Part shown: positions 13,518 to 17,759 of the stretch, piece after piece | Layout: every line of letters starts with the position of its first letter | Position numbering within the stretch: position 1 is the stretch's first letter | Assembly (NCBI RefSeq): GCF_000317515.1 | Contig: NC_019738.1 | Coordinates: forward strand, 781,501-845,500 | Origin: Allocoleopsis franciscana PCC 7113 | GTDB taxonomy: Bacteria; Cyanobacteriota; Cyanobacteriia; Cyanobacteriales; Coleofasciculaceae | Direction: 5' to 3' | Length of the DNA: 64,000 bases | The notes under the pieces: generated by a model | What the model saw: only the letters and a program-made list of their open reading frames with translations | Told to the model about the DNA's origin: nothing | Database searches by the model: none | Position numbers and translations under genes: made by a program

Positions 13518-14819
13518 TTAGTTGTGATGCCATAAGTTCTTGAAAAGCTGATTCTCCCGGATAGCATCAAAGGAAGAATCAGTTTTGGCTTTTTCCCTAA
13601 GTTGTTCTGGGTTGAAGTTGATCGCATGTTTTAGGGTTTCAATGGCTGTGGATACATTGCCTAACAAGGCATAACAACAAGCTTTGTTGTACCAAGCATC
13701 AGGATAATTGGGTTTAATTTGAATGGCTTTATCATAGGATGCGATCGCGTCTTCATACCGCTTCCACTTCTCAAGTGTCTTAGCTCTGTAAAACCAAACT
13801 TCATCTAGGTTTTCCTCGATTTCAATAGCCTTATCGTATGAAGCAATGGCTTGGTCGTATTGTTGTAATTCTCCGAGTATCCAGCCTCTGACAAACCAAG
13901 CATGAGCCTCCTCTGGCTGGATTTGAATTATCTTTTCATAGGCAACCAAGGCTTCTTCATATCGTTGTAATTGATAAAGTAAGGAAGCTTTTGCATACCA
14001 AGCTTCGGAGTATTTGGGTTGAATTTTAATCGCTGCCTCATAGGATGCGATCGCCTCCTCATAACGTTGCGATTTTCGTAACTTTTCACCTCGGTTATAC
14101 CACCCAACTTCTTTACGTCTAAATAGCCATAAACAACCCACCAATCCTAAGATTAAAATATTCGATTGTTGTCGAAAAAGATAATATCCATGACCTGCCA
14201 TCTGTGGAGATATACCCAGAAAATCACTAATGGTATAAGTCCAATTCCAAAACAATTGATTTAATGGCTGAACATACCAAAGCAAGGCAAAAAGAATCCA
14301 TATTCCATACTTGCTAAATTTGTTCAGCTTAATCTGTGTTTTTCGGGGTAACCATGGCTCAATAATTCCATAACCATCCAGGGGGGGAATGGGCAGTAAA
14401 TTGAGCAAGACACTCGCAATTTCTAAGAGGACTAGAAATGCCAAACTGGGCCAAATCCAGTGTTCTACAGATGGCGTCGCCCAACCTAACCCAAAAGGAA
14501 TCGTCAGTAGTATCGTGACAACGATGCTGGCAAAGGGGCCGGCGGCTGAAACAGCACTTTTCCACCAGCGGCTGCGTAAGCGACGATGATTAATATAAAC
14601 AGCCCCTCCCGGCAGTGCAATACCACCCATCAAGAGAAAAAGAATTGGTAGGAGGAGGCTATAAACGGGGTGGGTATATTTGAGCGGGTTTAATGTTAAA
14701 TATCCCTTATCTTTTACTGACTTATCTCCACCCAAATAAGCTACTACCGCGTGTCCGAACTCATGTATGCAAACTGATAAAATCCAACCGAGACAAATGA
14801 ACACGGCGATCAGCCACAC
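13518..14819 (-). CDS. M50 (site-2-type) metalloprotease fused to TPR repeats
   Basis: The 433-residue protein starts at GTG 14819 with AGGAGG about 9 nt upstream. Residues 1-225 form a membrane domain with the zinc motif HEFGHAVVAYLGG (HExxH, residues about 19-23) and the second motif LLPIPPLDGYGI (about 146-157), both diagnostic of M50/site-2 proteases. Residues about 238-425 hold at least four tetratricopeptide repeats (YEEAIASYEAAIKIQPKYSE and similar), predicted to be cytoplasmic. This suggests intramembrane cleavage of a substrate recruited by the TPRs. The gene is divergent from the c-di-AMP riboswitch transcript. Confidence 0.88.
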   Translation of the reverse strand: MWLIAVFICLGWILSVCIHEFGHAVVAYLGGDKSVKDKGYLTLNPLKYTHPVYSLLLPILFLLMGGIALPGGAVYINHRRLRSRWWKSAVSAAGPFASIVVTILLTIPFGLGWATPSVEHWIWPSLAFLVLLEIASVLLNLLPIPPLDGYGIIEPWLPRKTQIKLNKFSKYGIWILFALLWYVQPLNQLFWNWTYTISDFLGISPQMAGHGYYLFRQQSNILILGLVGCLWLFRRKEVGWYNRGEKLRKSQRYEEAIASYEAAIKIQPKYSEAWYAKASLLYQLQRYEEALVAYEKIIQIQPEEAHAWFVRGWILGELQQYDQAIASYDKAIEIEENLDEVWFYRAKTLEKWKRYEDAIASYDKAIQIKPNYPDAWYNKACCYALLGNVSTAIETLKHAINFNPEQLREKAKTDSSFDAIRENQLFKNLWHHN

Positions 14820-15002
14820 GGTTTCTTCCTCCTAAGATGAAAAACTAATTGATACTAAGATAGCGGTCTTGCAGGGTAATTCACCTAACTTGATAAATCT
14901 GAAGAATTATTACTTTAACTAGACAAATCCTACACAAGGGAGTAATACTCTTAAAAAGTAAGTGGGTAGCCTAATTTTCTTCAAGATTGACCCATTCAAT
15001 CA
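14820..15002. other. Divergent promoter region before the riboswitch
   Basis: This AT-rich stretch lies between the M50 gene start and the riboswitch. It should hold the leftward promoter for the protease and the rightward promoter for the riboswitch RNA. No specific operator is recognised. Confidence 0.4.
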
Positions 15003-15140
15003 AGTCTTAACTTGGAGAAGAACGGAGGAACCAATTTTTGGGGCAAATCTCACTCAGCGTGAGACAGACACCTTCCAGTCTGAGTCCGTCAGCTAACTCC
15101 GTAGGCAATGGAAGGAGCACCATTGACATCAGCTTAAGGT
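15003..15140 (+). ncRNA. c-di-AMP riboswitch (ydaO/yuaA type)
   Basis: The conserved ydaO elements appear in order. AACGGAGGAACCAA is at about 15021-15034 and TTTTTGGGGCAAATC follows at once. A CTCAC/GTGAG hairpin is at about 15050-15063. The diagnostic GTCCGTCAGCTAAC and CCGTAGGC close the core at about 15084-15107. CTTAA (15006-15010) can pair with TTAAG (15134-15138) as the closing stem. In known cases this aptamer binds c-di-AMP and switches expression of potassium or osmolyte transport and cell-wall genes off. Here no such gene follows directly. A possible expression-platform hairpin lies at 15167-15203, followed by TTTCTTG. Confidence 0.9.
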
Positions 15141-15642
15141 AAGCCGTTGTCCTTGGGGTCTCCTAGCGAATAATATGATCACTTAGTTAGTGTCAGCTAT
15201 TCGTTTCTTGACCCACCTCGCAAAACGCCACAAGTATAAAGGGGTATGGATGATGACTTACAAAGAATGGCTTCGGCAAGAACGAGTATAAGATTAATTG
15301 ATTGACTGCTGATCATACTGATTGAATTGCATTCTTTGCATCAAATTTCCTCTGTCGATTTTAAAGATTATGGAAAATGGAAACGAAAATGAATAGCACT
15401 GCACCATTACGAACTGAACACACTTCACAACATGAATTTTTAAATTCAGCCAACTTTCCTAAAGTGAATACAATGAAATATGCTCTTCATCAATCTTCCT
15501 TTGAAATTGAAGGTATTCCTAATATATTGAGTCATAATCACAATTTGAAAAGAAAATATCAAAATAGAAGTAGATTTATTTGACTTACCCACTTAACACT
15601 GAGCGATAGTCATTGTTGAAGAACTGAAGAGGAAGAGCGAAA
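15141..15642 (+). other. Long leader or degenerate region after the riboswitch
   Basis: A stem CGAATA (15167-15172) with TATTCG (15198-15203) may be the riboswitch terminator. Two very short frames follow (ATGATGACTTAC at 15250, 13 codons; ATGGAAAATGGA at 15370, 8 codons). I see no conserved gene until 15643. One explanation is that the original riboswitch target has been lost; another is that it is a tiny peptide or the 80-aa gene downstream. Confidence 0.4.
15377..15583 (+). CDS. Candidate small protein, 68 aa (weak)
   Basis: The frame begins METKMNSTAPLRTEH and ends in basic residues (LKRKYQNRSRF). It has no recognisable domain and no clear ribosome-binding site. It lies in the region controlled by the riboswitch, which is the only reason to list it. 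Confidence 0.2.
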   Translation: METKMNSTAPLRTEHTSQHEFLNSANFPKVNTMKYALHQSSFEIEGIPNILSHNHNLKRKYQNRSRFI

Positions 15643-15885
15643 ATGAGAATAAAAAATCGTAGCTTTTTTAATTACGTAGATTTTTTTACGGCTGACAATT
15701 TCCGCCTAATTGGAGAATATGCTGATCAAAAGCTGTTTTTAATTGGTAGAGCCAAAGGATACGGCGATCCAATTGTTGCCATCTGCCAAACTGACGAGCC
15801 AAGTCAGGAAGAATTATCCGCTTATGACCTTTACGAGCTAATGAAGTTTAGCCATAGTCCTGTCAAACTGACTGAAGCTATTTAG
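15643..15885 (+). CDS. Hypothetical protein, 80 aa
   Basis: The 80-residue product starts MRIKNRSFFNYVDFFTADNF and contains LIGEYADQKLFLIGRAKGYG and an acidic C-terminal half. A purine-rich ribosome-binding site (GAAGAGGAAGAG) sits just upstream. It looks like a small soluble alpha/beta protein; I do not recognise the family. It is the first well-supported gene downstream of the c-di-AMP riboswitch, about 500 bp away, so it is a candidate target. Confidence 0.6.
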   Translation: MRIKNRSFFNYVDFFTADNFRLIGEYADQKLFLIGRAKGYGDPIVAICQTDEPSQEELSAYDLYELMKFSHSPVKLTEAI

Positions 15886-16031: not shown

Positions 16032-17759
16032 ATGGATAACCGCAAAAACCTCTCTCTACATTATTGGGCGTTGGCTGGAGTCATGGCTCTAGGAGTAGCG
16101 CTGCGATTTTGCAATCTCGATCTTAAACTTCTATGGCTCGATGAGGTGCTGACAGCTTTACTCAGCTTAGGGCACCGTTACAAAGATGTACCTTTAGAGG
16201 TGGTATTCCCGGCTTCAACCTTGCAGGAGTTGTTTACGCTTCAACCCCATCGTAGTTGTGCCGCGATTGCCCAAGCCGTTGCCACCGAATCCACCCATCC
16301 TCCTCTGTTTTTTTGCTTAATGCATCAATGGCTGAATGGGATGGAACCCGTCGCCCACACGCTCTCGTGGAAACTCAGGGCGCTTCCTGCTCTCTTGGGG
16401 GTGGGTGCGATCGCAGCCACTTATGCTTTCAATCGTATCGTTTTTTCCCCCATCGCCGGTCTGCTCGGAGCCGCTTTCATGGCGGTTTCTCCCTTTGCCG
16501 TCTACCTCTCCCAAGAAGCACGTCACTACACGTTACCGATGCTGTTGATTATCCTGGCGCTACTGGGATTAATGCAGATTCAGCACGCCCTCTACAATCG
16601 GCAGCAGTTGCCAAAACCCTTCGTTTGGTTGTTGTGGGGCATCATTAACAGTATCGGTTGCTATGTCCACTACTTTTTTATTCTGGCATTCATTGCCCAG
16701 CTTTTGACCCTAACCGGACTGATGTACTGGCGTCGTCGGCTTTTACCCAAGGGAAGTTGGCTAGCCGTTACGCTGGTAATCGTCGGCGTGGCAGTGAGTT
16801 ATTTGCCTTGGCTATCTGTGATGTTGGGCAGTTTTGGGCGTGCTGAAACAGGGTGGCTTCCCAAACCTCAACATATTGCTCCCTTGTATCAAACCGTTTT
16901 AGCTTGGCTGAGCATGGCGATCGCGCTGCCAGTCGAAAGTCAACCGTTGTGGATTCAGATCCCAGCCGTGTTATTGACTATTGTGTTTGGGGGTTGGGTG
17001 GGTTGGCAAGGCTGGCGAGGACTAAAGTTACTCTGGCAGCAGCCGGAAACGCATCTGGCAATCTTAACCCTCTCCGGTTTCATCCTTTGTGTGCTGCTGC
17101 AATTTGCAGGGATTATTTATCTGCTAGGCAAGGATATTACTGTTGCCCCTCGCTATCACTTTGTTTACTACCCAGCCTTATGTGTTTTGCTCGGAGCTAG
17201 CTTTAGCTCCAGAAAATTGAAGGTTATTCTTCCCTGGGGTTCCCAAAAGATGGGTTCAAATCCGTCTTCTCAGCTACAACCTGCAACCATTTTTTTGTCT
17301 GTTTCCTTATTGAGTTGTATTTTTGTCATTTCTAACTTAGCGTTTCTCAAATCCTTCCATCCTCAGCAGGTAGCCAGGAATATGTCCGTGGATGGAGATG
17401 TTCCCATCATGATGGTAGTGGGATATCAAAACTTTCAAGATGTTGCTTTGGGATTAAGTTTTGCGTTAGCTATTGACCAATTACATCGAGGTAATTTGGA
17501 GGGAATGACAGAGGCTTCTTTTGCCTTTTTACACCGAGAACCCTCCTATGAATTCGTTTGGCAAAAACTGTCTAAACTGCCCTTTTTATCAGTTTCTCGT
17601 TTGAATCTTTGGGTGGTTGCGCCTGGGTTGAGGCGTCGGGAATATCCTCCAAAACTTGCCATTGGGAACCAATCCCGCTGCACAATTGACCCTTCTCAAC
17701 ATTACCGAATAGGGATTCCCTATCAGCTTTATCGTTGTGTTTCAACACCTGATTTATAG
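16032..17759 (+). CDS. Membrane glycosyltransferase, GT39/PMT-like
   Basis: The 575-residue protein has about 11-12 membrane helices. Near the N-terminus it has LWLDEVLTALLSLG, the DE motif in the first periplasmic loop typical of GT-C enzymes that use polyprenyl-phosphate sugars, followed by THPPLFFCLMHQWL. Such proteins move a sugar from a lipid carrier to protein or lipid outside the membrane. The soluble C-terminal part (about 440-575) is variable. The ATG at 16032 is the natural start. There is no operon partner. Confidence 0.8.
   Translation: MDNRKNLSLHYWALAGVMALGVALRFCNLDLKLLWLDEVLTALLSLGHRYKDVPLEVVFPASTLQELFTLQPHRSCAAIAQAVATESTHPPLFFCLMHQWLNGMEPVAHTLSWKLRALPALLGVGAIAATYAFNRIVFSPIAGLLGAAFMAVSPFAVYLSQEARHYTLPMLLIILALLGLMQIQHALYNRQQLPKPFVWLLWGIINSIGCYVHYFFILAFIAQLLTLTGLMYWRRRLLPKGSWLAVTLVIVGVAVSYLPWLSVMLGSFGRAETGWLPKPQHIAPLYQTVLAWLSMAIALPVESQPLWIQIPAVLLTIVFGGWVGWQGWRGLKLLWQQPETHLAILTLSGFILCVLLQFAGIIYLLGKDITVAPRYHFVYYPALCVLLGASFSSRKLKVILPWGSQKMGSNPSSQLQPATIFLSVSLLSCIFVISNLAFLKSFHPQQVARNMSVDGDVPIMMVVGYQNFQDVALGLSFALAIDQLHRGNLEGMTEASFAFLHREPSYEFVWQKLSKLPFLSVSRLNLWVVAPGLRRREYPPKLAIGNQSRCTIDPSQHYRIGIPYQLYRCVSTPDL

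Follow-up and report, generated by a model that had tools for sequence, protein, structure and literature searches.

A cyanobacterial c-di-AMP riboswitch proposed to have passed from one small-protein gene to another

The stretch of Allocoleopsis franciscana PCC 7113 DNA analysed here (64 kb, referred to as the window, with coordinates counted from its first nucleotide) contains a complete c-di-AMP riboswitch of the ydaO/yuaA class together with the broken remains of one small gene and an intact copy of another. Based on comparisons among cyanobacterial genomes, we propose, with a probability that we put at about 0.7, that this is a working riboswitch that has passed from the first gene, family A, to the second, family B, such that its original target has been lost at this locus and B is the gene that it would now control. 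New here are the gene history of the riboswitch and two families of small proteins linked to c-di-AMP control.

The aptamer and its lost first target

The Rfam covariance model RF00379 matches the forward strand of the window at 14993-15122 with 74.3 bits (E 2.2e-15, model positions 1-134 of 134), where the gathering score is 38 bits, and this is the sole Rfam match above threshold in the 64 kb. The ydaO/yuaA riboswitch that a sequence-only reading had recognised from its conserved boxes is therefore present. The span given for it, 15003-15140, is too short at the 5′ end, as P1 starts at 14969; the Rfam alignment itself misregisters the 5′ arm of the aptamer, and the true arm lies upstream of the covariance-model placement. 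From the Rfam match and the pairings read from the sequence, the complete aptamer occupies 14969-15115 (+) and includes both P1 strands, a long P2 and the 3′ pseudoknot strand. In P1, GCCT at 14969-14972, which is contained in TAGCCTAAT at 14967-14975, pairs with AGGC at 15103-15106, an extended P2 is formed by ~14975-14985 and 15011-15021, and the pseudoknot is formed between CCTTCCA at 15071-15077 and TGGAAGG at 15109-15115, a layout that recurs in relatives. The boxes quoted in the sequence-only reading are present, and GTCAGCTAAC is a box of the aptamer. Judged by these features, the window element is an ordinary member of the RF00379 riboswitch class, and the genome encodes one gene with a diadenylate cyclase (DAC) domain (135 bits, cut-off 27). 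There are six RF00379 copies in the whole genome, among which that in the window scores highest; others, at G000:C1:1202992, 2926163, 2929604 and 6914785, lie upstream of two GT4-like glycosyltransferases, an ABC permease and a Usp-like gene. On the other side of the window riboswitch, upstream and divergently oriented, is a gene for an M50-type membrane peptidase fused to TPR repeats (13518-14819, -).

We define family A as a protein of ~65 aa with the consensus MNYKQW..L.K.ELNGIAVDYTDPEGK.YSEPFCFYTLDEAL.YGK.CIDR.IRT. In the genomes searched, ten of its eleven close homologues have a same-strand aptamer 130-139 nt upstream, and no aptamer was found near diverged A-like proteins of other families. 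The exception among the eleven is a second A gene (L075; G000:C1:6911686-6911853, -), which has no aptamer of its own; the glycosyltransferase riboswitch at 6914785 is 2.9 kb away. The window genome has an intact riboswitch-A unit elsewhere (L003), the leader of which is the same as that in the window. Searched with the DNA of 14950-15620, relatives show a conserved leader that extends well beyond the aptamer, and in one of them (G035/L010) the similarity to the window covers the leader and continues past the start codon of an intact A gene. At the window locus the intact ~65-aa ORF is absent, intact copies being found only elsewhere, and its place is taken by MMTYKEWLRQERV (15250-15291, +), 13 codons and then a stop, which we assign as a family A remnant from the homology of its leader and start to those of intact A. 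The A locus of the congener G001 begins MMTYKQWLQ and then continues into unrelated sequence and a stop, a 354-nt gap in the window-congener alignment begins within the A remnant, and G004 has a broken A copy that is longer than the remnant in the window. In all three genomes A is broken at this locus, yet each has an intact riboswitch-A unit elsewhere (L003 in the window genome, and L058 and L035 in the other two). On this comparative evidence family A is the first target of the window riboswitch, and it has since been lost.

Family B and two riboswitch lineages

The gene for family B (15643-15885, +) encodes an 80-aa protein of unknown function. That it is a real gene, as had been supposed from the open reading frame alone, is indicated by a dN of 0.032 compared with a dS of 0.27 against the congener, which reflects purifying selection, and the window protein has full-length homology to its relatives, the conserved motifs YGDPIV and DLYELMK, and a c-di-AMP aptamer upstream. 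When 84,980 species genomes were scanned by pattern, 17 full-length homologues of B emerged, some in Coleofasciculus-like genomes and others in Nostocales; for 16 of these, RF00379 precedes the start codon by 121 to 1796 nt on the same strand. With the window and its congener added, 18 of 19 full-length B genes lie behind a same-strand c-di-AMP aptamer (L090 is the one without), although the B loci are phylogenetically related and these linkages represent fewer than 18 independent events; the chance of an aptamer lying within 2 kb of any one gene is about 5-8e-4. The sequence-only reading had named the lack of any conserved downstream gene as counting against it, and B is conserved. Its view that the riboswitch has no recognisable target holds for the Pfam and NCBIfam databases but not for comparative genomics, which links B to aptamers, and the two outcomes between which it had hesitated, a lost target or a new small protein, are each correct in part, since this locus has lost A and has conserved B as its next gene. 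The membrane glycosyltransferase at 16032 was considered as a target and set aside, as it is not adjacent to B outside the genus.

The aptamers and leaders fall into two types that are separated in their tree with support of 100/100, type 1 being common to glycosyltransferase and ABC-permease leaders and type 2 to A and Usp leaders, and B genes are found behind both. The B protein tree has two clades that follow taxonomy (support 100/98), each of which includes both riboswitch types, and trees that force either type into a single B clade are rejected (AU tests, p 9e-7 and 2e-84). With each B clade containing both types and single origins rejected, riboswitch and B have probably been joined anew, or swapped, more than once. 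Other than the riboswitch, no neighbour gene is common to both B clades. In several genomes the original gene can still be traced between riboswitch and B, as A in L081 and L082 and as a glycosyltransferase in L093 and L095. In Nostoc T09 (L094) the order is riboswitch, glycosyltransferase, C and B, with the glycosyltransferase intact; in Mojavia (L095) the glycosyltransferase has a large internal deletion, in Dendronalium (L093) a fragment with stop codons is left of it, HT-58-2 (L082) has an A copy interrupted by stops, and in a Centralia MAG (L084) the leader runs almost straight into B. C is a further unannotated protein of ~65 aa (MLNIGDYALHQETGQFGQVFGYGHQIINGAYFTTLKV...), found in three Nostocaceae with its gene between B and the riboswitch (L093-L095, 3724-3923). 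The loci display intermediate stages of gene change behind a riboswitch, from the intact original gene through internal deletion and fragments to the junction of leader and new gene, and so make the evolution of a riboswitch regulon observable. That B is the reason for keeping the aptamer is argued most strongly by the 13 Nostocales genomes that have B: none has an intact A, and eight still carry an A/Usp-type aptamer, of 60-72 bits, before B.

None of A, B, C and D (an ORF discussed below) has a match above cut-off in Pfam, nor do A and B among NCBIfam models or PDB sequences. AlphaFold confidently predicts B to be a small strand-rich domain (pLDDT 86.6), for which Foldseek found no solved structure at E <= 0.001 and the best VIA-align Z was 2.8. 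A domain with weak similarity to B is N-terminal in larger proteins in two genomes of the same order (L077 697-1710 and L078 685-1710, -), and the protein of L077 also contains DUF7352 and GUN4 domains. Downstream of the riboswitch and B in Cyanobacteria bacterium UBA8803 is a gene (L079 4993-6120) for a putative bicarbonate transporter resembling SbtA; a link between B and SbtA was set aside, as this neighbour was seen at that locus only and was not repeated in other genomes. As to function, we infer that A and B might act in the c-di-AMP response as small regulators or adaptors.

A possible route from aptamer to B

The region between riboswitch and B had been described as about 500 bp of short or decayed frames. 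There is indeed no known gene in it, but it contains a conserved leader (15113-15249), the A remnant and an ORF, here termed D (15389-15583, +). The leader starts with a hairpin, H1 (15113-15164, +; AGGAG.ACC with GGTCTCCT, and inner stems; -21.6 kcal/mol), which is identical in the window and its congener and whose almost invariant pairs are maintained in 92% of cells across 12 leaders. A second hairpin, H2, follows at 15165-15206 (+; -12.5 kcal/mol, z -3.3), and the last part of the leader (15210-15249, +), conserved in the 12 leaders, may serve to sequester a ribosome site. Within it, GACCC at 15210-15214 is complementary to GGGTC at 15156-15160, and ACCTC at 15215-15219 to the Shine-Dalgarno stretch GGGGT at 15241-15245, both complementarities being conserved in the 12 leaders. 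Two mutually exclusive pairings are possible, either H1, in which GGAG.ACC pairs with GGTCTCC, or GGGTC with GACCC, and the latter adjoins the stretch able to cover the first ribosome site. In a covariation test of the 12 leaders both alternatives were conserved and gained no covariation support; since the pairs are nearly invariant such a test is uninformative, and the pairing scheme is a model only. A terminator scan found no intrinsic terminator between aptamer and B, which leaves a plain terminator switch unsupported. In Brasilonema the platform downstream of H1 is lost, so the same switching mechanism cannot apply there.

We propose that a unit of riboswitch and A was duplicated and that the window locus is the second copy, in which A would have decayed to its 13 codons while an intact unit stayed elsewhere in the genome. 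The aptamer would have been retained because the same transcript reads through to B, past the genus-specific D, and the riboswitch would set the expression of B by the level of c-di-AMP. In the RF00379 class high c-di-AMP lowers expression, and by analogy c-di-AMP would repress B. In the most likely switching step, GGTCTCC would pair with GGAG.ACC or the GACCC pairing would form instead, and the alternative pairing would alter how readily the first ribosome site can be reached or how stable the transcript is. The weakest step is the way in which this would act on B, another 400 nt downstream, for which transcript stability or coupling through D may be suggested. Conservation points to B as most likely the present target of the riboswitch.

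Any such mechanism must be weighed against the view that the riboswitch is a relic of A that now controls nothing, with B merely the next gene and served by its own promoter. The truncation of A and the presence of an intact riboswitch-A unit elsewhere would fit this view, as would the distance to B, which at 521 nt in the window, and as much as 1.8 kb in other genomes, is long for a leader; a -10/-35-like site lies between them at 15501-15528 (10 of 12 positions match; the scan gave six sites where 3.1 were expected), from which B could be transcribed. Against this view, the aptamer has diverged from that of the congener at only 4.1% of positions (96% identity), compared with 7.0% for B, 12.8% for D, ~21% for the spacers and 30% for the 3′ flank; the values for the 5′ flank (8.8%) and the platform (9.6%) fall in between, making the contrast clear rather than extreme. 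The aptamers kept by eight Nostocales that lack an intact A, and the ties of B to two separate riboswitch lineages, also argue against a relic, and we regard this explanation as unlikely.

The controlled product could instead be D, or the 13-codon remnant peptide, with B co-transcribed by accident. D (64 aa, alternative start 15377) is the first normal-sized ORF past the leader, it is intact in both congeners, and its dN of 0.08 and dS of 0.41 against G001 (dN/dS ~0.2) indicate mild constraint, so that a genuine small gene probably lies here, between riboswitch and B; in both congeners the remnant has likewise kept its leader and start codon. D is restricted to the genus, however, with no clear homologue outside it in 291 genomes of the order, and in all other genomes B follows the aptamer without an intervening D, while the remnant peptides vary in both length and sequence, which makes control of either product highly improbable. 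Nor do we favour, at a scarcely better chance, an inherited neighbourhood, in which an ancestral cluster carried both riboswitch types and B stands beside one of them by descent rather than by selection for c-di-AMP control. An ancestral tandem followed by differential loss would also place both types in both B clades, and Nostoc T09 retains the order from riboswitch to B intact; on the other hand, no genome examined has both types in tandem before B, all other neighbours of B have changed, and the aptamers persist while the genes between decay. We therefore retain the transfer of a working riboswitch from A to B as our preferred reading. Its extension to cyanobacteria in general, to which we give a little less than even odds, is that their c-di-AMP riboswitches are reusable modules, that B was captured repeatedly through two lineages in each of two clades while the earlier target, A or a glycosyltransferase, eroded, and that A and B are two unrecognised small-protein families of the c-di-AMP response.

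Relation to known riboswitches

The window element resembles other RF00379 riboswitches in its full aptamer, boxes, P1, pseudoknot and same-strand upstream position, and in the diadenylate cyclase of its genome. It differs in that its original target has been lost and the gene that it probably serves now encodes an unannotated small protein; its ligand, c-di-AMP, is predicted from the class. The canonical regulon of K+, osmolyte and cell-wall genes is not matched here, given the lack of Pfam matches for B and D and of an NCBIfam match for B. Cyanobacterial c-di-AMP riboswitches were assigned to osmoprotectant synthesis and transport by Nelson et al. (2013), as that work is cited in PMC5986932. 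The window genome agrees with this assignment in the RF00379 copies before its glycosyltransferases, permease and Usp-like gene and departs from it in A and B, two further target families without a known domain. In the literature searched, neither A, B nor small-protein targets of c-di-AMP riboswitches were found. Orphan riboswitches are classes whose ligand is unknown (PMC7266159), and the window locus is like them in having a downstream gene of unknown function; it is also their reverse, as here the class of ligand is known and the gene is not. Cyanobacteria require c-di-AMP for diurnal growth (reviewed in PMC10117731), the genes under their c-di-AMP riboswitches are poorly charted, and the near-exclusive linkage of A and B to such riboswitches makes these families direct, testable entry points into the c-di-AMP response.

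One further locus in the congener concerns the succession of riboswitch targets. Behind a c-di-AMP riboswitch at G001:C24:37333-37501 (L063) is a 134-aa ORF in which a ComFB domain was suspected, a suspicion that Pfam did not bear out. The ORF starts like a glycosyltransferase and is unlike one in its remainder, and it is possibly a further replaced riboswitch target.
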